IMG/VR virus record: IMGVR_UViG_3300009177_000040
Coordinates: 1-61,335 of that record
From: a virus
Direction: 5' to 3' (one strand)
Length of the DNA: 61,335 bases
In this document: one piece after another, positions 26,167-43,448 of the stretch
Layout of the letters: every line of letters starts with the position of its first letter
Numbering within the stretch: the stretch's first letter is position 1
Made by a program: the position numbers and the translations under genes
Notes under the pieces: model-generated
The model's database searches: none
What the model was told of the DNA's origin: nothing
What the model saw: only the letters and a program-made list of their open reading frames with translations

Positions 26167-26978
26167 GCTGCCAGCGCCATGTCTGGCACAGCGTACGCAC
26201 GGGACAACCGCTCGGCCGCAAGCCGGGCCTCCTCAGCGGCAGCAGTCATCCGCTGGAAGCTCCGGCCCATCGCTTCGATCTGCGTTTGGGCCTGCCGTGC
26301 GCTCGCCAGAGCTGCCGTGAGGACGTTGGGCCTGTTCGCCGACGAGGGGGAGAGCCGCATGCTGTTGGCGACCCGGTGGAAGTTCGCCGGGTCGGTCTCG
26401 AGCAGCAGCTTGAGCGCGATCAGCGAGTCCTCGTCGATGTACGAGTACGACAGGTGGATGCAGTGCGACCATTCCGGCGTCCCGTTCTTGCCGAGCTGGT
26501 GCACCGTCCCGCCCTTGCGCAGACGGTACAGCTCGCCGTCCGCACCGCAGACCGTGAAGGTGCCCGTCTTGGCGTACTCCCACTTCTGCGTCTCGGACAG
26601 CATCGACACCAGCAGCCGCTGACCCTTGCGCACAGCCCGCTTGCGGCGGATGGCCTGGCGGTGCTTCCGCTCGCGCGTCTCGCGCAACCGGCGGTCGGCC
26701 TCCTCCTGGCTGATGGCGGGCTGGGCGACCGGATGGTTGTACTGGCCGTAGTCGTAGGTCACCGTCTGGGCCGGGTACTGGTCGGACACCCACACGTTCC
26801 CGTTGACCTCGTAGACGTAGCGCATCGACCCGGTCGTGTTTTCGGCGTACGTCGGCCAGATCGTGTTGACCTGGTACGAGTTGGACGTACCCGTTGCCGT
26901 GATCCCCGTGACCGACCACGAGTCGGTCCCGTCTTCCCGCCAGGCCAGCCGGGCGTTGTCGTAGACGAAGCCCGCCAC
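26163..26978 (-). CDS. Hypothetical protein
   Basis: A 271-residue protein. The N-terminal third is beta-rich (SMRYVYEVNGNVWVSDQYP), followed by a basic helix (RRLRETRERKHRQAIRRKR) and a C-terminal helical region. GTG start right after a TAG. Unrecognised; conserved-looking composition. Confidence 0.55.
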   Translation of the reverse strand: MAGFVYDNARLAWREDGTDSWSVTGITATGTSNSYQVNTIWPTYAENTTGSMRYVYEVNGNVWVSDQYPAQTVTYDYGQYNHPVAQPAISQEEADRRLRETRERKHRQAIRRKRAVRKGQRLLVSMLSETQKWEYAKTGTFTVCGADGELYRLRKGGTVHQLGKNGTPEWSHCIHLSYSYIDEDSLIALKLLLETDPANFHRVANSMRLSPSSANRPNVLTAALASARQAQTQIEAMGRSFQRMTAAAEEARLAAERLSRAYAVPDMALAA

Positions 26979-33930: not shown

Positions 33931-33974
33931 GACCCTGCGCCGGAGTTGAACCGGCGTGCGTGCCCACCAGGGTC
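33931..33974 (-). ncRNA. tRNA-like minihelix A
   Basis: Acceptor-like stem GACCCTG/CAGGGTC (7 bp), T stem CGCCGG/CCGGCG, loop TTCAACT, 12-base linker containing GGGCAC. It begins six bases after the TAG at 33981-33983. No D or anticodon arm. Confidence 0.75.
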
Positions 33975-33980
33975 AGACCT

Positions 33981-34058
33981 CTACCTCCATCCGCGCAGCC
34001 ACCAACGCAGCACGCGGTCGAAGTAGAAGCTCACTTCTGTGGCGAGTGGCGATGCCAT
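33981..34058 (-). CDS. Tiny Trp-rich protein
   Basis: A 25-residue ORF whose ATG overlaps the TGA of the DUF6283-like gene (TGATG), with AAAGGAG nine bases upstream. Amphipathic and aromatic (VSFYFDRVLRWWLRGWR), so possibly membrane-active. It ends six bases before minihelix A. Confidence 0.5.
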   Translation of the reverse strand: MASPLATEVSFYFDRVLRWWLRGWR

Positions 34059-34480
34059 CACGCCCATCTCCTTTCCTGCTTTCGAGTGAGCCGCGCCACC
34101 AGCGCGACTGCTTCGGCCGAAGGGTTCTCGACCTCAGCCAGACCATGGGCCGCGGCCTCTGCGCCCGACGCCCACAGCGGCACGTCGGTCGTGTACTCGA
34201 GGATCGCGTCCACGTCCTCCACCGGGGTCAGGCCCACTTGGACTGATACCCGAAGCCCGATGCTGTGGTTCATGTCGTGCACCGCCACCCACCCGGCGCA
34301 CAGCCGACCGTCCTGCTGATGACACCCGAACGCTGAGACCGGCTGCCCGCTCGCTACGTCGGCTGCATCGTAGGGCGGCAGCTTGGCGTACTCCTCCTCC
34401 GACCAGACGCCGGACGGTACGTCCCGGCGGTACGGACAGGAGAGGCACGGCCGCGGTGCCGGACGCCTAAGCTCAGGCAT
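34058..34480 (-). CDS. DUF6283-like protein
   Basis: A 140-residue protein. CLSCPYRRDVPSGVWSEEEY, KLPPYD, then FGCHQQDGRLCAGWVAVHD form the Cys/His signature of DUF6283, a family found in many actinobacterial phages. Four Cys/His positions could hold a metal. Function unknown. Confidence 0.75.
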   Translation of the reverse strand: MPELRRPAPRPCLSCPYRRDVPSGVWSEEEYAKLPPYDAADVASGQPVSAFGCHQQDGRLCAGWVAVHDMNHSIGLRVSVQVGLTPVEDVDAILEYTTDVPLWASGAEAAAHGLAEVENPSAEAVALVARLTRKQERRWA

Positions 34481-34661
34481 CCGAGCCTCCCTTCCCTCGG
34501 AGTGCCCGAACCGTCTCGCTGACCACGCAGACGAACAGCACGAGCAGCACCCAGGACCACCAGCTGATGAGGGTCATGATGACGCCCCAGATGAACCAGA
34601 GCGCCAGCAGCCCTACTGCCACCGCGGCGATCAACGAGCCGATGAACTTGAGGGTCTCCAT
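34473..34661 (-). CDS. Small membrane protein
   Basis: A 62-residue protein with two hydrophobic helices (LIAAVAVGLLALWFIWGVI and WSWVLLVLFVCVV) and a basic C-terminus. Coupled by overlaps to both neighbours; AAGGAGG upstream. Confidence 0.6.
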   Translation of the reverse strand: METLKFIGSLIAAVAVGLLALWFIWGVIMTLISWWSWVLLVLFVCVVSETVRALRGKGGSDA

Positions 34662-35035
34662 CACCGACCCTCCTTCCAGGCGTAGAAGCGAGTCTCGTGA
34701 ACGCTGACGCCGTTGCGCAGCTTCACGACCACGCTCCACTCACGACCGTCGGGGTCGTTGCCGTCGTCGTGCCGCCACAGCTTCCCGCTGCGCTTCCACT
34801 CGAAGCGGTGCCCGGCGTACTGCCGGTTGCGGACAGTCAGGTAGCGGTTGTAGACGAACTCCTCCAGGGCGAACTTCTGCCCCTCGTCGTAGATGATGAC
34901 CGTCCCGGCCCGCTTGGGCCGGATTGTCATGCTGGGCGTGTAGCCCATCTTGATCCAGTGCGCACGGTTCGCGTGAGCCTGTGCGCCTGGCTCCTGCATG
35001 ATCGCCCAGCGGGTGCCGTTACGCATCCTCTGCAT
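34661..35035 (-). CDS. Hypothetical protein
   Basis: A 124-residue basic protein with aromatic beta segments (ALEEFVYNRYLTVRNRQY, WSVVVKLRNGVSVHETRFY). The ATG lies inside the end of the upstream gene. Unrecognised. Confidence 0.55.
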   Translation of the reverse strand: MQRMRNGTRWAIMQEPGAQAHANRAHWIKMGYTPSMTIRPKRAGTVIIYDEGQKFALEEFVYNRYLTVRNRQYAGHRFEWKRSGKLWRHDDGNDPDGREWSVVVKLRNGVSVHETRFYAWKEGR

Positions 35036-35318
35036 CGTCCACCTCCCCTCCTTCGTAGTACTGGATGTCCATGCCGGTCTCCTGCGCCTTCGCGCAGACA
35101 TCGCACTGGTACCCGGCCTGCACGTCTCGCGGCGTCAGGCTGTTGGGCCAGTGGCAGGTTGGGCAAGGGAGGTTGCGTGGGTTGTCCGGGCCAGCGGCCC
35201 AGAGCGCGCTCTCCCCGCCGGGGTCGGCGAACCGCGAGGCCCGTGACCATCCGTCGTTGTCTTCGTACGGGTCGTCCCAGTCAGGCTCCGGCTCGTACTC
35301 GTCGCTGTAGTACGCCAT
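35019..35318 (-). CDS. Small zinc-ribbon protein
   Basis: A 99-residue protein with an acidic Tyr/Asp/Glu-rich N-terminus and CPTCHWPN...CDVCAK, a zinc ribbon. ATG 35318 overlaps the previous TGA (TGATG). Confidence 0.6.
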   Translation of the reverse strand: MAYYSDEYEPEPDWDDPYEDNDGWSRASRFADPGGESALWAAGPDNPRNLPCPTCHWPNSLTPRDVQAGYQCDVCAKAQETGMDIQYYEGGEVDDAEDA

Positions 35319-35548
35319 CAGCTGATCACCCATCCTCTGTCAAGCCCGCACTGGGCGTGGACGATGCCTTCGCATGGCACGCGCTCCTGCGCCACCATGC
35401 GCTCCTCCTCGGTGAACGAGGGGTCGTACATGCCGGGGTCATGCATCTCCGCCGGGTCGTCTCCATGTGAGACGACCTCGCCGCAGAGCACGCACCGGCC
35501 GAGCGGCAGCTCGCGATCGAGCTCGCCTACGAACCGATCCCACTGCAC
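35318..35548 (-). CDS. Small Cys-rich protein
   Basis: A 76-residue protein with CVLCGEVVSHGD and a C-terminal CEGIVHAQCG, a likely zinc site. GTG start with GAAGGAGG upstream, just downstream of minihelix B. Confidence 0.6.
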   Translation of the reverse strand: MQWDRFVGELDRELPLGRCVLCGEVVSHGDDPAEMHDPGMYDPSFTEEERMVAQERVPCEGIVHAQCGLDRGWVIS

Positions 35549-35580
35549 GGGGCACCTCCTTCTGTCGCTGTTCCCCCGAA

Positions 35581-35628
35581 GACCCCGACCCGGAGTCGAA
35601 CCGGGCAGGCCGCCAACCGGCCGGGGTC
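35581..35628 (-). ncRNA. tRNA-like minihelix B
   Basis: Acceptor-like stem GACCCCG/CGGGGTC (7 bp), T stem GCCCGG/CCGGGT (one G-U), loop TTCGACT. The 15-base linker can fold as GCCG/CGGC with a 5-base loop. Starts six bases after the TAG at 35635. Confidence 0.75.
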
Positions 35629-35634
35629 GTCTTG

Positions 35635-36072
35635 CTACGCAGGCTGCTTCTCGAGCTGCCTCTCAGCCCGGGCCACCGTGTCGTCCATGAAGCGGCTGAT
35701 GCGCTTGAGCCACTTGGCTCGCGTCACAGTCGCGACGTTGCAGCGTAGGCCGATGTGCGCCACCACCTCGTCGAGCGTGATGAACGCCTTCTCGCCCTCC
35801 GGCCGCTCGCCGGTCTCGGGGTCAACCGCCCGAATGAGCAGCGGCCCGTACAGCTGCTCGGTCAGCCGCAGTCGGGCGAAGTACTCGCCCACGTTCTCTG
35901 CGGTCGGGCCGGGCATGTCGACCGAGATGGTCGACCAGATCAGCGCGTTGGTGACCGGGTTCATGTACTTCTCCCCGGCAACGATGCCGTGGTTCGGGTC
36001 GTCCTGGGTGGCCTCCACCCAGCAGACCTCCTCACTGTTCTCGATCTTCTCGAGGTTCCAGCTGAGGGCCAT
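35635..36072 (-). CDS. Hypothetical protein
   Basis: A 145-residue protein with ATG overlapping the previous TGA (TGATG). It contains IVAGEKYMNPVTNALIWST and a C-terminal basic helix. Unrecognised; it ends immediately before minihelix B. Confidence 0.55.
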   Translation of the reverse strand: MALSWNLEKIENSEEVCWVEATQDDPNHGIVAGEKYMNPVTNALIWSTISVDMPGPTAENVGEYFARLRLTEQLYGPLLIRAVDPETGERPEGEKAFITLDEVVAHIGLRCNVATVTRAKWLKRISRFMDDTVARAERQLEKQPA

Positions 36073-36287
36073 CACACCTCACTCCCTTCCTCGCCCGTGA
36101 CCTCGACGACGCTGGCGTACGCCTTTGCCGCCGGGCCGTAGGCGTTTGCGAGCACGCGCTCGGCGTCCTCGCGGTTGTCGTACATGAGCGCGGTGGCCAG
36201 CGTCGGTGCCCAGCCGAACCCGCCCTGGTACATCCCGGCCCACATGACCGGTCCTTCGTCCGGGAAGACGAACCTGATGACGAACAT
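36072..36287 (-). CDS. Small hypothetical protein
   Basis: A 71-residue alpha/beta protein (VIRFVFPDEGPVMWAG, NREDAERVLANAYG). Coupled by overlaps to both neighbours. Confidence 0.55.
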   Translation of the reverse strand: MFVIRFVFPDEGPVMWAGMYQGGFGWAPTLATALMYDNREDAERVLANAYGPAAKAYASVVEVTGEEGSEV

Positions 36288-36601
36288 CAGACCTCCCCGC
36301 CCTCGACGTCGTGCCAGTAGCAGACCTCGACCATGCCGAAGTCGCCGTGGCTGTGACCGGGGAACGGCTGGCGCACCCCGAAGTACGGCCCGGCCTTCAC
36401 GCGGAAGTCCGGGGTTCCGATCCACGCCATCAGGTCGAGTAGCTCCTCGAGCATGGTGGCCGCGCTGGGCTGGCATGAGAGATGCGGGCCGCTCTCTGGC
36501 CCACCGTCGTCCCACACCAGGTCGTTGGCGAGCGAGCCGAAGCCGCAGCAATCCGACACGGCGCGCTCCATCTCCGCGAGATCGGTCTCGTCGAAGTTCA
36601 T
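36287..36601 (-). CDS. Hypothetical protein
   Basis: A 104-residue acidic protein with ATG preceded by CGGAAGGAGG. His/Asp-rich C-terminus (GHSHGDFGMVEVCYWHDVE). Follows minihelix C. Unrecognised. Confidence 0.55.
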   Translation of the reverse strand: MNFDETDLAEMERAVSDCCGFGSLANDLVWDDGGPESGPHLSCQPSAATMLEELLDLMAWIGTPDFRVKAGPYFGVRQPFPGHSHGDFGMVEVCYWHDVEGGEV

Positions 36602-36629
36602 GGCCTCCTCCTTCCGTTGCGTTGCCGAT

Positions 36630-36672
36630 GACCCCGGCGTGGACTCGAACCACGCTCAGACCTCTCGGGGTC
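36630..36672 (-). ncRNA. tRNA-like minihelix C
   Basis: GACCCCG/CGGGGTC (7 bp) stacked on GCGTGG/CCACGC (6 bp), loop TTCGAGT, 10-base linker AGAGGTCTGA. Begins six bases after the TAG at 36679; the downstream ATG follows a GGAAGGAGG site. Confidence 0.8.
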
Positions 36673-36678
36673 GACGTG

Positions 36679-37329
36679 CTAGCCCTGGTACTCGGGCATG
36701 TTGTCCATCGCGTCGCTGGCGGAGGTGCGAGCCTCCTCCGCGGCGTCGTCCCACATCTGCTGCGCTGCGTCGCGCCAGTCGCTCGGATTCTCGAAGTCCT
36801 CTGGCTCGGGCAGCTCAACCTGCGTGGTGTCTGGCTCCCAGGAGCGCAGCTCGTCCGCCCACTGCTCGAGCTCCTCGGCCACGGCCGACATCGCCTCGCC
36901 GACCGGTGCGTACTGCAACTGGTCGGGCATGTTGTCGACGCCGTCCTGGTACTCCTGTCCGACGTCGGCTGCAACGTCCGCAACCGTCTCGAGCGCGGCC
37001 AGCAGGTCGCTGGTGTCTAGCTCCATCGTCTCCGCGCTGGGGACGACGCCGTTCGGGAACAGCTGCGCGTACTGCTCGTCGAAGTCGCCCGGCGTCCAGT
37101 TTCCCATCTCGGTCTGGGCGTCCATGACGGCCTCCTCGACGGCCGCGGTCTTGCGGCCGCTCAGCTGCGTCGGCCGCGGGTACCCGCAGTCCACATGCTG
37201 GTAGTTCTCGGGGCTGACCCGGCGGCTCCAGAAGTAGTACCGCTGGCCCGGCTCCATCGGCTGACCGCACCTGCGGCAGCGGCGCTCGTACTTGCTCTTG
37301 CGGGCTGTGTGTGTGGTCACGCGTGCCAT
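36679..37329 (-). CDS. Zinc-ribbon protein with acidic body
   Basis: A 216-residue protein. CRRCGQPMEPG and VDCGYP near the N-terminus form a zinc ribbon; the remainder is acidic and helical with repeated DNMPDQLQY/DNMPEYQ elements. ATG preceded by GAAGGAGG. Unrecognised. Confidence 0.6.
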   Translation of the reverse strand: MARVTTHTARKSKYERRCRRCGQPMEPGQRYYFWSRRVSPENYQHVDCGYPRPTQLSGRKTAAVEEAVMDAQTEMGNWTPGDFDEQYAQLFPNGVVPSAETMELDTSDLLAALETVADVAADVGQEYQDGVDNMPDQLQYAPVGEAMSAVAEELEQWADELRSWEPDTTQVELPEPEDFENPSDWRDAAQQMWDDAAEEARTSASDAMDNMPEYQG

Positions 37330-37420
37330 GGCTCCTCCTTCTCGTTTGGTCGGCGTCTAGCCGACCCCATTGGTGCCCTGCGCCAGCGCGGGAGACAGCC
37401 TCTCAGTCCCGCCTGGCCTA

Positions 37421-37461
37421 CGGCCCGTGCCGGAGTCGAACCGGCGTGCCCGGTCGGGCCA
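37421..37461 (-). ncRNA. tRNA-like minihelix D
   Basis: TGGCCCG/CGGGCCG (terminal U-G pair), T stem GCCGG/CCGGC, loop TTCGACT, 9-base linker ACCGGGCAC. Starts six bases after the TGA at 37468. Two more hairpins follow before the next ribosome site, at 37388-37412 and 37348-37366. Confidence 0.7.
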
Positions 37462-37467
37462 ACCACC

Positions 37468-37692
37468 TCAGTTCCAGCACGTGTTGAGGTGCTGGAACCC
37501 GGTGGGCCGGTCTGCCCAAACCATGTCCGTGACGACCCCGCGCTCGGGGTCGCCGTCGAAGATGCGGCAGTGGCCGTCCCACCCGTTGTCCTCCAGCAGC
37601 GTGCGTGCCGCGAGGATCGCTGCGTCCTTGCTGTCTGCCTCGGCCTCGTCGCCAGAGGGGTCGTGCCTCACCGTGTAGCGATGGTCAGTCAT
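37468..37692 (-). CDS. Small hypothetical protein
   Basis: A 74-residue protein (RYTVRHDPSGDEAEADSKDA, DNGWDGHCRIF) starting within the end of the upstream gene. Unrecognised. Confidence 0.55.
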   Translation of the reverse strand: MTDHRYTVRHDPSGDEAEADSKDAAILAARTLLEDNGWDGHCRIFDGDPERGVVTDMVWADRPTGFQHLNTCWN

Positions 37693-37918
37693 CGTCCTCA
37701 CCTTCCAGCTCGGACGCCTCGTTCTGTTTGAGGCAGTTGTCGCACTGATACGGCCGATGCGCGTCGTCCTCGGCGCGCGTGAACATGCCGGGGTAGACGC
37801 GCTCGTCCTCGACCAACTCGCCGCGCTGCGTGGCGTCCAGGTCGTTCTGGAGGCACTCGCCGCAGACGATCATTCCGTGCTCGGTGTACTCGTAGAAGTT
37901 GTCGGGTCCGTACGGCAT
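37685..37918 (-). CDS. Small zinc-ribbon protein
   Basis: A 77-residue acidic protein with CGECLQND and YQCDNCLKQN, a zinc ribbon. ATG overlaps the previous TGA (TGATG). Confidence 0.6.
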   Translation of the reverse strand: MPYGPDNFYEYTEHGMIVCGECLQNDLDATQRGELVEDERVYPGMFTRAEDDAHRPYQCDNCLKQNEASELEGEDDD

Positions 37919-38136
37919 CACCAGTACCTCGCTTCCTGCGGGTAGCAGAACTTCGCTGCGGCCCATGTGTAGTCGCTGATGACGACGGCCTCGAGGTGCT
38001 CCCACCTCGGGTCGCCGGTCAGCTCGGTGAACATGGCGTCTGCGGCCGACTGCATGTCGCCCGCGGCCCGCCCGATGTTGAGCAGCCGCTCGCGCTCGTG
38101 GCGAGACAGGCTGACGTATGCGGGCTGGCCGGTCAT
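37918..38136 (-). CDS. Small helical protein
   Basis: A 72-residue protein (RHERERLLNIGRAAGD, DPRWEHLEAVVISDY). The ATG overlaps the previous stop (ATGA). Unrecognised. Confidence 0.55.
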   Translation of the reverse strand: MTGQPAYVSLSRHERERLLNIGRAAGDMQSAADAMFTELTGDPRWEHLEAVVISDYTWAAAKFCYPQEARYW

Positions 38137-38552
38137 CCCAACCACCGGCGGAAGCCGTCCTCGACGCGGGCCTGATCGGTCAGCGCCTCGTTCAGGTACC
38201 CGACGTAGGAGGCGACGCGGAACTCCTGCGCCTCGCTCTCCGGCTGCGCCTTCCACTCTTCGACGCGAACCTGCCATGCCTCGACGCGCTCGCCCAAAGC
38301 CTTCAAGGTCTGCCCAAACACCTTGAGCAGCTCGTCGTCGGTGAACTCCCGCAGGTTGAACGCCTCCCGGCTGGTGCGGTTGAGCAGGTTCCCGCAGCGC
38401 GGGCAGCGCATGCCGTCGTCCAGCCTCAAACCCGTCGTCGCCTTCCAGGCGAACGCGGGCCGATCGACCGTGCCCCACACCGTCTCGCTCAGCTTGACGC
38501 GGCAGTGCGTGTTGGGGCAACGTCCGACGCGATATGTGTCGTCGAATGTCAT
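38133..38552 (-). CDS. Zinc-ribbon protein
   Basis: A 139-residue protein with CPNTHCRVKL and RCPRCGNLLN, a zinc ribbon, then a helical body. ATG preceded by AGAAGGAGG. The 415 bases upstream hold no convincing gene; they contain the palindrome at 38689-38706 and minihelix E. Confidence 0.6.
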   Translation of the reverse strand: MTFDDTYRVGRCPNTHCRVKLSETVWGTVDRPAFAWKATTGLRLDDGMRCPRCGNLLNRTSREAFNLREFTDDELLKVFGQTLKALGERVEAWQVRVEEWKAQPESEAQEFRVASYVGYLNEALTDQARVEDGFRRWLG

Positions 38553-38682
38553 CGCGCCGACCTCCTTCTCTGATCGCTGCCCGGCGGTCAGGCCGGGCTG
38601 GGGACTGTGACCTCTGGCGCTCGCATCGCCGCCTGGCTTTGACCGCTCTCGCGGGGCAGGCGACCTAGGTGGAGCGTCAGAG

Positions 38683-38706
38683 TATATAGCGCGCTGTGCA
38701 GCGCGC
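38683..38706 (-). promoter_or_regulatory. TATATA plus GCGCGC palindrome
   Basis: GCGCGCTG and CAGCGCGC are separated by two bases, a near-perfect 18-base palindrome, and abut TATATA. Similar AGCGCGCT boxes next to AT-rich stretches occur at 41505-41533 and 41993-42010. It could be a promoter with an overlapping operator for the 38552 gene. Confidence 0.45.
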
Positions 38707-38708
38707 AT

Positions 38709-38746
38709 GCGCAGCTGCTGGAGTCGAACCAGCCGTGGTTGCTCGC
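38709..38746 (-). ncRNA. Divergent tRNA-like minihelix E
   Basis: A clear T arm (GCTGG, loop TTCGACT, CCAGC) with a weaker acceptor stem GCGAGC/GCTGCGC that needs one bulged G. It is the least regular member and is not next to a recognised stop codon. A more distant CGCAGC near 38830 could pair instead. Confidence 0.5.
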
Positions 38747-38968
38747 CGGGCCGAAGCCCTGTGCCGGTGACCATCCGGTCTAGCGACCGCCGGTCCCTCG
38801 CTACGAGCACCGCGCCACCTCGGGCTGCGGCGCTAGAGAGCAGAGCGGCTTGCTCCGAGACCGGCCTGGCCAGCTCCTCCCGAAGGACTCGCTCCGGCAC
38901 CGCGTCGTCGTCGGCTTCGTGGGTGGCGCGTCGCCGCGCTCCCACCAACCGCTCGCCCTGCTCTCTAT

Positions 38969-39011
38969 GACCCCGGCCGGGAGTCGAACCCGGCCTGCGA
39001 CCATCGGGGTC
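38969..39011 (-). ncRNA. tRNA-like minihelix F
   Basis: GACCCCG/CGGGGTC (7 bp), GCCGGG/CCCGGC (6 bp), loop TTCGACT, linker ATGGTCGCAG. It starts seven bases after the TGA at 39019, which is the natural end of the upstream gene if a one-base frameshift is accepted. Confidence 0.8.
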
Positions 39012-39018
39012 GTTTCGC

Positions 39019-39548
39019 TCACTTGGCGGTGCGCTTCGCGACTGCCTGAGCGCGGTGACGACCTTGCGGACGTCGCCCTTCTTGCTGACGGACATGTACT
39101 CGTACTTGCCGTGTCCGTCGCTGACCTCCACCGCTGCCTTGCGGGCACCGAGGTAGAGGTAGCCGAGCGTCTTGCCCTCCACCGTCATCCGGCGGTAGGC
39201 CTTCTTCTCGACCATGCTCAGAGCCGGGAACTGCGTCGTGAGCGCAGCAACCAGATCGTCGCCGAGGTTGGTATCAGGGGTCTTGCTGGCCATGGTGGCC
39301 TCCTTCTTGTTGCGCTGCGCGCCCGATTGGCGGCAGCAGTTGTGTACCTTCACGTCTTCGCGCGACCAGCCCATCTCCTCCATCTCGGAGTCGATGTAGT
39401 CGGACAGCGCATCTTCCAGCGAGTCGAACGGCCCGCTGATGACCGAGGCGTGCCGGTCGGCCTCGCGCTTGATGTCCTTGCAACCTTCGCGATGCACCGA
39501 GGCGATCTCGTTCTGCATGATCTGATGGCTGAGGACGACGCACCTCAT
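39019..39548 (-). pseudogene. Nested two-part gene, frameshifted near its end
   Basis: The frame opens at ATG 39548 after AAGGAGG with a small Cys-containing domain (VHREGCKDIKREADRH, VKVHNCCR). An internal ATG at 39293 with AAGAAGGAGG starts a paralogue of the 32.4 kb product (MVEKKAYRRMTVEGKTLGY). The coding sense changes frame by one base near 39045: only then does it end QAVAKRTAK-stop at 39019. Otherwise the frame runs for 400 bases through minihelices F and E. This is either a real mutation, a -1 shift, or a sequence error. Confidence 0.5.
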
Positions 39549-39570
39549 GACCCACCTCCTTGGTCAACCC

Positions 39571-39593
39571 CGGGACGCCGGGCTGGCGTCCCG
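39571..39593 (-). other. Nine-bp hairpin downstream of minihelix G
   Basis: CGGGACGCC pairs with GGCGTCCCG around a five-base loop, immediately 3' of minihelix G on the minus transcript and before the next ribosome site. There is no U-tract, so it is more likely a leader or processing element than a terminator. Confidence 0.4.
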
Positions 39594-39595
39594 AT

Positions 39596-39638
39596 GACCC
39601 CGGCGCGGAGTCGAACCGCGCTGTGACCGCTCGGGGTC
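39596..39638 (-). ncRNA. tRNA-like minihelix G
   Basis: GACCCCG/CGGGGTC (7 bp), GCGCGG/CCGCGC (6 bp), loop TTCGACT, linker AGCGGTCACA. Starts six bases after the TAA at 39645. Confidence 0.8.
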
Positions 39639-39644
39639 CATGCC

Positions 39645-40298
39645 TTACTTGAACGTGACCTCGAAGGACACGTCCTTGCGGTCGTACCCCGGGCCGGGGC
39701 TGACCGCGGTGAGCACCGCGCGGTTGACGTCGACGACGTCGGCGTCAGCACCCATCGCGCGGAGTCCCTCGAGCACGGCGTCGGTCATGTCCTGCGCCAG
39801 CTCGTCGTAGGGGAACTCGTCCTGCCAGTTCTTGTAGACGTCGCCGACCCAGTCGAGCTTGACCATCGGCTCGTCGTCGTTGCCGACGACCGCCAGCCAC
39901 CGCTCGTCTGCGTCGAGCCAGACCGTCTGCGTCTTGCAGCTCGGGCAGCGCGGCCCGTACTCCTCGACCGGCCACATGCCGCACTCGCAGGTCTTGCCCT
40001 CGACCCGGGCAACCTGCGCATCCTCGAGCGCGGTCTCATCGGCGGGCACTGCCTCGCCGACCACGACCAGGTACTGTGCGCGGGCGACCCGGCTCGCAAC
40101 GAGCGTGCGGGCGACCGCTTCGTCCTCGACGAACATCTCGACGCTTGCCATCGCGTCGTCCCAGAGCATCGCAAGCCCGCTGCTGTCAGAGCGGTCACGC
40201 ACGTCCGTGAAGCCGTAGCAGCCTGCGTTGTTGTAGAGTGGCCGCTCGGCCTCAGCCAGTGCGTCCCACTCGGTCTCGGTGAGGGTGCGGTACGACAT
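39645..40298 (-). CDS. Hypothetical zinc-ribbon protein
   Basis: A 217-residue acidic protein with CECGMWPVEEYGPRCPSC in the middle, a zinc ribbon, and a C-terminal beta segment. ATG at 40298 follows GAAAGGAG. Unrecognised. It lies between minihelix I upstream and G downstream. Confidence 0.6.
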   Translation of the reverse strand: MSYRTLTETEWDALAEAERPLYNNAGCYGFTDVRDRSDSSGLAMLWDDAMASVEMFVEDEAVARTLVASRVARAQYLVVVGEAVPADETALEDAQVARVEGKTCECGMWPVEEYGPRCPSCKTQTVWLDADERWLAVVGNDDEPMVKLDWVGDVYKNWQDEFPYDELAQDMTDAVLEGLRAMGADADVVDVNRAVLTAVSPGPGYDRKDVSFEVTFK

Positions 40299-40332
40299 GA
40301 CGTCGCTCCTTTCGATCGGTTGCACTTCGATG

Positions 40333-40394
40333 CGCGCCGGGAGGGAGTCGAACCCTCGTCAACGACCAGCCGCTTGGCGATCCGGGTCAGCGCG
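40333..40394 (-). ncRNA. Longer tRNA-like element I
   Basis: Acceptor-like stem CGCGCTG/CGGCGCG (one U-G), T stem GAGGG/CCCTC, loop TTCGACT. The 30-base linker contains ATCGCCAAGCGG, which resembles the D arm of bacterial tRNA-Gln, but no anticodon arm. It lies two bases downstream of minihelix H, forming a tandem pair. Confidence 0.65.
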
Positions 40395-40396
40395 AT

Positions 40397-40438
40397 GACC
40401 CGGCCGGGGAGTCGAACCCCGCGTGACCGTTCCGGGTC
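40397..40438 (-). ncRNA. tRNA-like minihelix H
   Basis: GACCCGG/CCGGGTC (7 bp), T stem CGGGG/CCCCG, loop TTCGACT, linker AACGGTCACG. Starts six bases after the TAG at 40445; followed by element I. Confidence 0.78.
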
Positions 40439-40444
40439 GATGTG

Positions 40445-40813
40445 CTAGGCCTCGCTCCAGTGGAGCTGGCCGTCCTTCTCCTCGACGCCCCAAAGCTCGT
40501 CGCTCTGACCGACGACCTCCATCCACTGGAGCGTCGGGGTGCCGTTCTCGAGCGTGTTCTCGTAGCGGTCCTTCCGCATGTACCGCTCGGCGTACCGCTT
40601 CGCCTCGTCGAGCGAGTCGACGACGGTGTAGCACTCGCGGAAGCTGCAGTCGCCGTTCCAGCCGTAGCCGTAGACGACGTAGCTGACCTCGACCCGGCCG
40701 GTGCCTGAGCACCAAGGGCAGCGGGTGAGCGTCTCGCCCTGGAAGTCGAACGGGGCGACCTGACCCGTGCCGTCGCACTCGACGCAGGTCGTGTATGTGG
40801 TGTCGGCCGACAT
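40445..40813 (-). CDS. DnaJ-type zinc-finger small protein
   Basis: A 122-residue protein. CVECDGTGQV and CPWCSGTGRV are a paired CxxCxGxG zinc site of the DnaJ type; an alpha/beta tail follows. ATG preceded by GAAAGGAG. Its function in the phage is unknown. Confidence 0.65.
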   Translation of the reverse strand: MSADTTYTTCVECDGTGQVAPFDFQGETLTRCPWCSGTGRVEVSYVVYGYGWNGDCSFRECYTVVDSLDEAKRYAERYMRKDRYENTLENGTPTLQWMEVVGQSDELWGVEEKDGQLHWSEA

Positions 40814-40893
40814 GGTCGGCTCCTTTCGTACCGTCGGCGCTTCCCCGCCTCGATTGGCCCACGCCGGTCGGGAAGCTCGGCCGTAGACCTTAT

Positions 40894-40935
40894 GACCGCG
40901 GCCGGAGTCGAACCGGCCTGATGACCGTCGCGGTC
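40894..40935 (-). ncRNA. tRNA-like minihelix J
   Basis: GACCGCG/CGCGGTC (7 bp) directly stacked on GCCGG/CCGGC (5 bp), loop TTCGACT: exact tRNA acceptor/T-arm geometry. Linker ACGGTCATCAG. Starts seven bases after the TAG at 40943. Confidence 0.8.
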
Positions 40936-40942
40936 TGCTGTG

Positions 40943-41179
40943 CTACATGCGCTCTGAGCGGAGCGCGCGGACGAAGCCGAAGGCGACCAGCGTGACCGTC
41001 GTCAGCGCGACGGCGACCGTGGCGACCTCGAACAGCAACATCGACTCGTAGTCGAAGCCCTGCGGAACGCCCAGGGCTGCTGCCAGCACACCGCCGAAGA
41101 TTACGACGGCAGGACCGGCGACCGTCTCGAAGGCGAACCATGCGCCTGAGCCGTGAACCATGTGCAGTAGGTCGAGCAT
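40943..41179 (-). CDS. Two-helix membrane protein
   Basis: A 78-residue protein with two hydrophobic segments (GPAVVIFGGVLAAALGV and LLFEVATVAVALTTVTLVA). ATG preceded by AAGGAGC. It lies between minihelices K and J. Unrecognised. Confidence 0.6.
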   Translation of the reverse strand: MLDLLHMVHGSGAWFAFETVAGPAVVIFGGVLAAALGVPQGFDYESMLLFEVATVAVALTTVTLVAFGFVRALRSERM

Positions 41180-41213
41180 GATGTGCTCCTTGGTTGGTGG
41201 GGACGTTGCAGAT

Positions 41214-41253
41214 GAGCCGCCGCGGAGTCGAACCGCGGTACGCCGACCGGCTC
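41214..41253 (-). ncRNA. tRNA-like minihelix K
   Basis: GAGCCG/CGGCTC (6 bp) stacked on CCGCGG/CCGCGG (6 bp), loop TTCGACT, linker GTCGGCGTA. Starts five bases after the TGA at 41259. Confidence 0.78.
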
Positions 41254-41258
41254 GTCGA

Positions 41259-41408
41259 TCAGTGAGCGTGACGATGCATGTGGAACGCGGCGACCAAGTA
41301 GCAGACCGCCTTGACCGGCGAGTCAACGTGCGTCAGTGCTTCGACCAGACCGTCCATCATGTGGTGGTCGAGGTGGAGCGCGATCGAGGTGAGCTGCATG
41401 CGTGCCAT
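41259..41408 (-). CDS. Small His-rich protein
   Basis: A 49-residue ORF with GAAAGGAAC upstream of the ATG. His clusters at both ends (LHLDHHMMDG, HMHRHAH) suggest metal binding. Its TGA is followed by minihelix K at the family spacing, which supports translation. Confidence 0.5.
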   Translation of the reverse strand: MARMQLTSIALHLDHHMMDGLVEALTHVDSPVKAVCYLVAAFHMHRHAH

Positions 41409-41453
41409 GGGGACCGTTCCTTTCGTGCGCTGGGGACCGTTCGGTGTTGCGAT

Positions 41454-41494
41454 GGCCAGGCGCGGAGTCGAACCGCCGTGTGCCGTTGCTGGCC
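41454..41494 (-). ncRNA. tRNA-like minihelix L
   Basis: GGCCAG/CTGGCC (6 bp), T stem GCGG/CCGC, loop TTCGACT, 12-base linker with GGCACAC. It is the first element met by minus-strand transcription. Upstream is a four-codon ORF (MKRA) ending in TAGTAA, 17 bases away. Confidence 0.65.
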
Positions 41495-42629: not shown

Positions 42630-43448
42630 TTAGGGCAGCTTGAGTTGCACGCAGACGAACATGGTCATCTGGCCACCCGGCGTGTTGAAGGTGATCGTCT
42701 GACCGGCGAATCCTTCGGGGCAGTTCAGCCCCTCGGCCGTCGGGCCGGGAGGGCCAGGTGGGCCAGCAGGCCCGGGCGGACCCGGCGGGCCGGGCACGGT
42801 GGAGTCGGCTCCAGCTGGCCCTGTGGCTCCAGCCGGGCCGGGAGGACCGGGTACGGTCGAGTCCTCGCCTGGCGCACCTCGAGGACCGGCCGGGCCGGGT
42901 ACCGTCGAGTCAGCTCCAGCCGGGCCGGTGGGGCCAGCTGGGCCGGGCACCGTGGAGTCCTCGCCTGGGGCACCGGCCGGGCCGCGAGGCCCAGGCACCG
43001 TCGAGTCTGCTCCGTCCTTGCCGTCAGCACCGGCCGGGCCGGTTGCCCCGGGCGGTCCTTGCGGGCCGGGCATGCCGGTGAAGACTTCCCAGCTCGGGCC
43101 GGGAGGCTCGCTGGCGATGTTCTGCCGCAGCGCGAGGTAGACGACGCCATCGTCGGTGACGAGGTCGCCGGGCTGGTAGGAAGCGCGGCTGCTCCAGTTG
43201 CCCCTGAAGTTGACTCCGATCGCGCCTGGCGGACCGGCCGGGCCGGGGGCACCTTTCGCGCCAGCTGGGCCGGTCTTGCCGTTCTTGCCGGGCTGCCCTG
43301 CCGGGCCGGGCGGGCCAGGTTCGCCCGGCGCACCGGCAAGCAGCCGAGTGGAGGCCGAGGAGTCTCCCCGAATCCCCCATCCGCTCGCGCCTCCGCCGAG
43401 GAACACTAACATCAGGCCGAGCGCCATGATCGCAGTGACGCGCTTCAT
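42630..43448 (-). CDS. Secreted collagen-like protein
   Basis: A 272-residue protein. An N-terminal signal ([17 protein letters not shown]) is followed by Gly-X-Y repeats ([27 protein letters not shown]) interrupted by a 50-residue module [18 protein letters not shown] that resembles small carbohydrate-binding (chitin-binding type) domains, and a C-terminal Cys-containing knob. Collagen-like stretches are usual in tail fibres, but this one has a signal peptide and sits in the lysis block. It may coat cells or debris or be a released receptor-binding factor. Confidence 0.65.

Follow-up and report, generated by a model that had tools for sequence, protein, structure and literature searches.

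Known tRNA-like structures as processing signals

MALAT1 acquires its 3′ end at a tRNA-like structure through the action of RNase P and RNase Z (PMC4919922). Like the viral elements described here, mascRNA and menRNA (RF01684; 3′ ends of MALAT1 and MEN beta) are tRNA-like structures with reduced arms carried on a long RNA. Their edges are cut by RNase P and RNase Z (PMC4919922), whereas for the viral elements we infer cleavage; besides, they occur once per mammalian lncRNA, whereas the viral element is shorter and occurs once per gene gap of an operon. In mitochondria, intergenic tRNAs, and in plant mitochondria the tRNA-like t-elements, mark the cuts that release mRNAs (PMC8601606; PMC4919922), as the viral elements may do between phage genes. 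The mitochondrial tRNAs are mostly complete and active in translation, whereas the viral element consists of 40–44 nt and has no anticodon arm.

The RNase P RNA of E. coli cuts correctly when the substrate offers no more than an acceptor stem, a T stem and a T loop, and the in vitro cleavage of acceptor/T-arm hairpins by RNase P is sensitive to changes at G19, G53 and A58 (PMC11143913). Such laboratory model substrates share the acceptor/T arm with the viral elements, but they are designed, carry an encoded RCCA and have no miniature D arm, whereas the viral elements are natural, repeated and without CCA. RNase P also acts on polycistronic bacterial mRNAs and several phage-induced RNAs (PMC4919922), although these reports do not include a shared, repeated and conserved tRNA-like element behind stop codons. 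No published description of such elements was found in full-text literature searches outside preprints and most subscription journals, and the compact RNA family appears to be undescribed; it has no Rfam family. The reliance of tRNA finders on an anticodon arm has likely kept it from notice.

Minihelices in the window

The window, i.e., the whole 61-kb stretch of viral DNA analysed (61,335 nt), was scanned for a T loop of the form TTCRANY on a T stem of 4 bp or more and a perfect, abutting acceptor stem of 6–7 bp. This strict scan gave 10 matches, every one on the minus strand between positions 33931 and 41253, compared to a chance expectation of 0.13 per strand in first-order Markov sequence. 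Nine of them were typical (33931, 35581, 36630, 37421, 38969, 39596, 40397, 40894, and 41214). The elements were also scored with a covariance model (R1), whose training set included the window elements at 40894, 39596, 36630, and 33931; the six solid elements outside the training set obtained E values from 1.5e-8 to 5e-4. The features, all on the minus strand, are as follows.

41454..41494, minus strand: minihelix with one acceptor mismatch (R1 26.6 bits, E 5e-4; outside the training set)
41214..41253, minus strand: minihelix of 12 bp, 4 nt past the stop codon (strict scan, E 8e-6)
40894..40935, minus strand: minihelix of the GGT class, 6 nt past the stop codon (strict scan, E 2e-11 as a training member)
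40397..40438, minus strand: minihelix, 6 nt past the stop codon (strict scan, E 1.5e-8)
40333..40394, minus strand: marginal variant, 62 nt long, whose linker folds into a hairpin (strict scan, E 0.12)
39596..39638, minus strand: minihelix of 13 bp, 6 nt past the stop codon (strict scan, training member)
39572..39592, minus strand: hairpin GGGACGCC/GGCGTCCC, just 3′ of the 39596 element and ahead of the next ribosome-binding site (read from the sequence)
38969..39011, minus strand: minihelix of 13 bp (strict scan, E 2.7e-8)
38709..38751, minus strand: T arm with no acceptor stem, doubtful member (covariance model)
37421..37461, minus strand: minihelix, 6 nt past the stop codon (strict scan, E 1e-4)
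36630..36672, minus strand: minihelix of 13 bp, 6 nt past the stop codon (strict scan, training member)
35581..35628, minus strand: minihelix with a 15-nt linker, 6 nt past the stop codon (strict scan, E 2e-5)
33931..33974, minus strand: minihelix of 13 bp, next start codon 20 nt downstream (strict scan, training member)

A sequence-only reading of the window had listed twelve minus-strand minihelices, of which ten are solid. The element at 41454, with its single mismatch, nevertheless scored well in the covariance model, whereas the 40333 element passed the strict scan only with a linker of 30 nt that itself folds into a hairpin, and the 38709 element has a perfect T arm to which its covariance match is confined. 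Seven window elements begin 4–6 nt past the stop codon of the upstream ORF. The minihelix family in the window is thus real.

The elements share with tRNA a canonical T arm with a TTCRANY loop stacked on an acceptor stem. ARAGORN detected no tRNA, and hence no full cloverleaf, at any window element or in L001, and BLAST searches with single elements mostly returned full tRNAs. The nearest resemblance in Rfam was to mascRNA-menRNA, detected for four window elements with a best score of 24.3 bits (threshold of RF01684, 42.5 bits); no match in the window reached gathering level.

RNA architecture and covariation

Elements of the family comprise 40–44 nt with a stacked acceptor/T helix of 11–13 bp, a canonical tRNA T loop and a linker of approximately 11 nt. 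Among 200 copies, the helix was 11 bp in 153, 12 bp in 30 and 13 bp in 17; the acceptor/T helix of tRNA has 12 bp. The acceptor/T helix was shown to covary, whereas slid registers did not, which bears out the earlier proposal of a conserved RNA structure. That proposal also held that both the D and the anticodon arm are missing. At 40–48 nt there is indeed no anticodon arm, but the linker was found to form a miniature D arm of 1–2 pairs presenting a conserved GG, akin to G18-G19 of the D loop.

In the larger class, the linker additionally pairs with T-loop positions 59–60. In the GGC class, the linker pairs 2-8, 9-60, and 10-59 covary and were 100% paired in 38 sequences; linker pairs of this class were paired in 87–89 of 91 cases (0 of 2000 permutations). 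Compensatory changes in linker pairs were found between orthologous gaps of two phages, and the distance from the GG to the loop was 14 nt in 128 of 147 copies. For the GGT class, a 4-base pairing between GGUC of the linker and GACU of the loop was noticed by eye and rejected for lack of covariation support.

Directly after the helix, the 3′ flank shows A in 150 and C in 166 of 192 copies, followed by U or G. An encoded CCA, as in the RCCA of RNase P substrates, was present in just 4 of 200 copies. RCCA aids RNase P, though it is dispensable in some bacteria. The 3′ flanks showed no U run of the kind found in intrinsic terminators.

Distribution across viruses and hosts

The covariance-model search detected the same element in isolated phages as well as in dozens of unrelated viral contigs. 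Among the phages, those of Streptomyces carry 8–10 copies each in approximately 100 related records, i.e., the compact family is present in about a hundred sequenced Streptomyces phages alone. It was further found in Mycobacterium phage Predator, Gordonia phage VanLee, Corynebacterium phage StAB and a Streptococcus prophage, and in few copies in halovirus HF2. The elements had no RNA annotation in these phages. The family is spread over many bacterial viruses and possibly, with few copies, over haloarchaeal viruses, and is not a single-phage oddity. Javan288 was found to contain a larger tRNA-like structure beside two minihelices.

In a pattern search of 395 actinobacterial genomes the exact motif was absent. 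A chromosomal origin was also considered and rejected: among the matches listed for GACGGTCN{5,7}GGTTCGACTCC in the genome collection, most were tRNA-Sec and none of the 38 others was a minihelix. L002, a hit of the first pattern scan, proved to be a match by chance, and two relatives of a neighbouring gene (L003 and L004) contained no elements, in the case of L003 because the sequence ends short of the region. Phage phiC31 was considered, in view of terminators without U tracts, for mapped RNA 3′ ends that might coincide with such elements, and was rejected, as it carries no array.

Position relative to genes

The start of the element was located at most 15 nt past a stop codon in 129 of 192 copies, and in 100 of those 129 at 6–9 nt (shifted controls, 8%), whereas about one third of the copies were not close behind a recognisable stop codon. 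The typical spacing is 6–8 nt, and the next start codon follows approximately 42 nt downstream. The preceding stop codon, typically 6–8 nt upstream, is the main positional cue. In five annotated phages, 29 of 34 long gaps (≥60 nt) contained one element, compared to 0 of 24 short gaps, and all 32 multi-copy loci showed a single orientation. The elements sit in sense orientation between genes, i.e., they are placed as in tRNA punctuation. The intergenic placement first noticed in the window was supported: the elements lie in gaps between co-directional genes, and relatives occur at equivalent gaps. The sequence-based tests proposed with that first reading were passed.

In a subset of copies, the element is immediately preceded by an inverted repeat, whose loop often contains the stop codon, and closely followed by a hairpin. 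Flanking hairpins were present in only one fifth to one third of the copies, and downstream hairpins were enriched in the family.

Probable punctuation of viral mRNA and alternative explanations

Their sequence and placement suggest that the elements are probably miniature tRNA mimics serving as cutting marks in polycistronic viral mRNA. The linker GG would dock on T-loop positions 55–56, and the resulting tRNA-like elbow, joined to an acceptor end, would be the feature that RNase P recognises. Host RNase P would then cut at the 5′ edge, close after the stop codon, and RNase Z or another nuclease at the 3′ edge, splitting the operon into single-gene messages. At its distance from the stop codon, the element would lie just beyond the reach of the terminating ribosome. 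Where an inverted repeat and a hairpin flank the element, the mRNAs set free could have hairpins that protect their ends. A helix of mostly 11 bp, compared to 12 bp in tRNA, and the lack of an encoded CCA speak against punctuation, as do the third of copies away from a recognisable stop codon and the limited occurrence of flanking hairpins.

The broader reading, to which we give somewhat less than an even chance, is that bacterial and haloarchaeal viruses share a dedicated family of tRNA mimics with tertiary contacts of its own, used as general, repeated mRNA punctuation that co-opts host tRNA maturation to yield single-gene mRNAs with defined ends. If true, mitochondrial-style tRNA punctuation extends to prokaryotic viruses, which would explain how operons of many small phage genes could give individual mRNAs. 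The elements would also offer RNase P or Z minimal substrates of natural origin whose D arm has a single pair, and would provide a processing signal that can be carried over into synthetic operons.

The position right behind stop codons is also compatible with an element that is retained on the upstream message and caps its 3′ end against exonucleases, in the manner of plant viral RNAs with tRNA-like ends. CCA might then be added, and either the 3′ edge alone would be cut, by RNase Z, or nothing at all. The A-C after a helix without CCA could likewise reflect RNase Z cleavage and CCA addition. In a subset of copies, however, the upstream message already ends in an inverted repeat of its own just before the element, so that a cut at the 5′ edge makes most sense, and we consider such a cap unlikely. 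An element that acts in cis on translation or stability and is left uncut, either as a barrier to ribosomes after termination or as the target of a tRNA-binding protein, viral or from the host, that regulates the next gene, would account for the fixed spacing to the stop codon and the next ribosome-binding site. It seems rather improbable, since a plain hairpin would be enough for a roadblock, whereas the conserved T loop, the GG and the linker/T-loop pairs call for a tRNA-specific partner.

Decoys acting in trans, small RNAs that occupy host tRNA-processing or tRNA-cleaving defence enzymes, would fit a tRNA elbow present many times in each genome, and tRNA-cleaving immunity exists (PMC12851939), but decoys need neither a fixed stop-codon distance nor a single copy per gap and are very unlikely. 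Intrinsic terminators without a U tract are hardly credible, although the elements are stable G+C-rich hairpins behind stop codons: a U run is absent 3′ of them, termination requires no T loop, GG or linker/T-loop covariation, and they recur between genes that would need co-transcription. Decay of tRNA genes left by recombination, suggested by the T-arm sequence, the tRNA genes carried by phages and the Javan288 arrangement, is contradicted as the sole explanation because of the covariation in stems and linker, with the constant GG-to-loop distance, one element per gap and the sense orientation also against it, and is highly improbable as such, although decayed tRNA genes may be the origin of the elements.

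Minihelices in the window

A strict structural scan of the 61,335-base virus record found ten minihelices (tRNA-like RNAs with an acceptor-like stem, a linker and a T arm), all of them on the minus strand within 33.9–41.3 kb, compared to an expectation of 0.13 per strand. The sequence-only reading had claimed twelve. One of the ten found by the scan (40333) received only marginal support from a covariance model of the family. The two claimed elements outside the ten were one that the model supports (41454) and one that is a T arm only (38709):

41454, minus strand: element with one acceptor pair missing, covariance model support (E 5e-4)
40333, minus strand: 62-nt variant with a hairpin in the linker, marginal covariance model support (E 0.12)
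38709, minus strand: T arm alone kept

An Rfam search of the window gave no family at threshold, and ARAGORN detected no tRNA at any element. The minihelix RNA family appears to be undescribed so far. However, the minihelices are of the same general kind as known tRNA-like processing signals and are therefore not categorically new. Two other features were observed in the window:

26867–26955, minus strand: tRNA-Thr (CGT) gene, the sole tRNA reported by ARAGORN
42700–43400: G+C-rich repeats of the GGNCCNGCNGG type, resembling minus-strand sequence that codes for a collagen-like protein

Covariation in the acceptor/T helix and the linker

In an alignment of 73 sequences, 84.5% of the cells of the 13-pair acceptor/T helix were paired compared to 52.4% in shuffled sequences, 299 cells were changed on both sides compared to 96, and helix registers slid by 1–3 columns fell to background pairing. 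Because the 73 sequences had been chosen for pairing, a second test was performed on 46 distinct elements taken from phages that had been retrieved on the overall similarity of a single gap; in this alignment, which was fitted to the covariance model and is biased towards it, pairing was 85.5% compared to 67%, with 96 compared to 21 double changes.

Pairing within the linker had no role in the choice of sequences and thus provides further covariation evidence. The linkers fell into two classes, GGC and GGT. Within the GGC class (for example ACCGGCAGACA), linker positions 2 and 8 form a pair (C-G, G-C, A-U or U-A), as do linker position 9 and T-loop position 60 (A-U or G-C) and linker position 10 and T-loop position 59 (C-G or G-C). 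These were paired in all 38 alignment sequences and, in a larger set, in 87, 89, and 87 of 91, respectively, which none of 2000 permutations equalled. Within the GGT class (GACGGTCNNNN), linker positions 1 and 7 covary (paired in 47/56; 0 of 2000 permutations), and positions 2 and 6 are compatible with pairing yet almost invariant. Between orthologous gaps of the phages phiScoe25 and Vanseggelen, whose upstream proteins are 67% identical, pair 2-8 switched from G-C to C-G, and A-U became G-C at pair 9-60. The conserved, covarying RNA structure proposed from sequence alone was borne out. The linker pairs in both classes therefore form a miniature D arm whose tiny loop holds the GG, and by analogy with G18-G19 of tRNA we infer that this GG would dock on T-loop positions 55-56.

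Position of the elements and putative function

Counting ORFs of at least 40 codons, 129 of 192 elements were found to start no more than 15 nt past a stop codon (100 of these at 6–9 nt), compared to 8% at shifted positions and 16% on the opposite strand; the next plausible start codon lay a median 42 nt downstream. Gaps of 60 nt or more numbered 34 in five annotated phages, and 29 of these contained exactly one element, whereas the 24 shorter gaps contained none. By a strict test, six further phages contained an element in 42 of 59 long gaps and in none of 26 short ones, and the model added hits in some of the gaps found empty. All copies were on a single strand in each of the 32 multi-copy loci. 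The 3′ flank was A in 150/192 and then C in 166/192, followed mostly by U or G, and CCA is therefore not encoded. Flanking hairpins are confined to a subset of copies: inverted repeats with arms of 6 bp or longer were found just upstream of 20% of copies (5% in shuffled sequences), and ones with arms of 7 bp or longer downstream of 33% (6%). When upstream arms of 5 bp were also admitted, 31 of 57 repeats had a stop triplet in the loop.

The element is best read as a putative processing signal, with a tRNA-shaped acceptor end and elbow placed shortly after a stop codon and ahead of the next ribosome-binding site. Acceptor/T-arm hairpins are cut in vitro by RNase P, which is affected by changes at G19, G53, and A58 (PMC11143913). 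At the 3′ end of MALAT1, a tRNA-like structure is a target of both RNase P and RNase Z (PMC4919922), and tRNAs serve as punctuation in mitochondria (PMC8601606); the cutting reading was therefore adopted. While structure and position are observed directly, we infer the cut itself, the enzyme behind it and the advantage it would bring: we lean towards RNase P cutting the 5′ edge of the element, with the 3′ edge probably cut by RNase Z. In the nearest competing reading, the element is retained on the message and forms a tRNA-like cap at its 3′ end.

Distribution among viruses

The first find from a pattern scan of virus contigs was a 41% G+C stretch encoding a DNA polymerase I-like protein and holding five minihelices, each no more than 9 nt past a stop codon; behind four of these, a GAAAGG ribosome-binding site with a start codon lay about 40 nt further on. 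A wider search with covariance model R1 and two broader patterns gave 201 non-tRNA minihelices across 253 viral loci. A linker GG is present in 200 of these minihelices, a feature that was partly selected for since the fetching patterns include part of the linker and the T arm. Acceptor pairing was absent from these patterns, and further copies on the same contigs were likewise outside pattern selection.

Copies detected with covariance model R2 (several of the isolated phages also supplied R2 sequences; StAB, HF2, and Javan288 did not)
Streptomyces phage phiScoe25: 10
Phage Vanseggelen: 9
Phage Dagobah: 2
Mycobacterium phage Predator: 7
Gordonia phage VanLee: 9
Streptococcus prophage record: 2
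Corynebacterium phage StAB: 1
Halovirus HF2: 1 (E 1.5e-6)

Sequence similar to one phiScoe25 gap was found in 109 Streptomyces phage records, six of which were fetched; the model gave 52 hits in these six, every one in sense orientation. Annotation beneath the matches in phages was hypothetical proteins or nothing, and RNA features were absent. With R1, HF2 yielded a second copy, weaker than the first. Tentatively, the family extends to archaeal viruses, based on few copies: two in HF2 and a doubtful one in HRPV-1.

None of 395 genomes in the same class as an Actinoplanes genome contained the exact GGC-class motif, and the GGT-class core gave no minihelix among the 38 non-tRNA matches listed from a genome collection; prophage copies with other linkers would escape such exact patterns. 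As far as these two patterns reach, the family would be virus-specific.

Further observations in single loci were:

Halovirus HRPV-1, 1485–1526: minihelix-like sequence with a 13-nt linker, overlapping the gp5 end including the stop codon
Mycobacterium phage Predator, 4845–4888: minihelix within the start of gp49 as annotated, an overlap suggesting that the gene's start codon has been placed too far upstream
Streptococcus phage Javan288, 446–530: larger tRNA-like sequence behind two minihelices (acceptor AGAGAGG/CCTCTCT), unreported by ARAGORN; similar sequence is present in more than 50 Streptococcus phages, in some annotated as ‘tRNA-OTHER’
L009 6883–7220 and L029 1124–1543, G+C-rich contigs: minihelices embedded in low-complexity intergenic repeats of the GGCANGGC type
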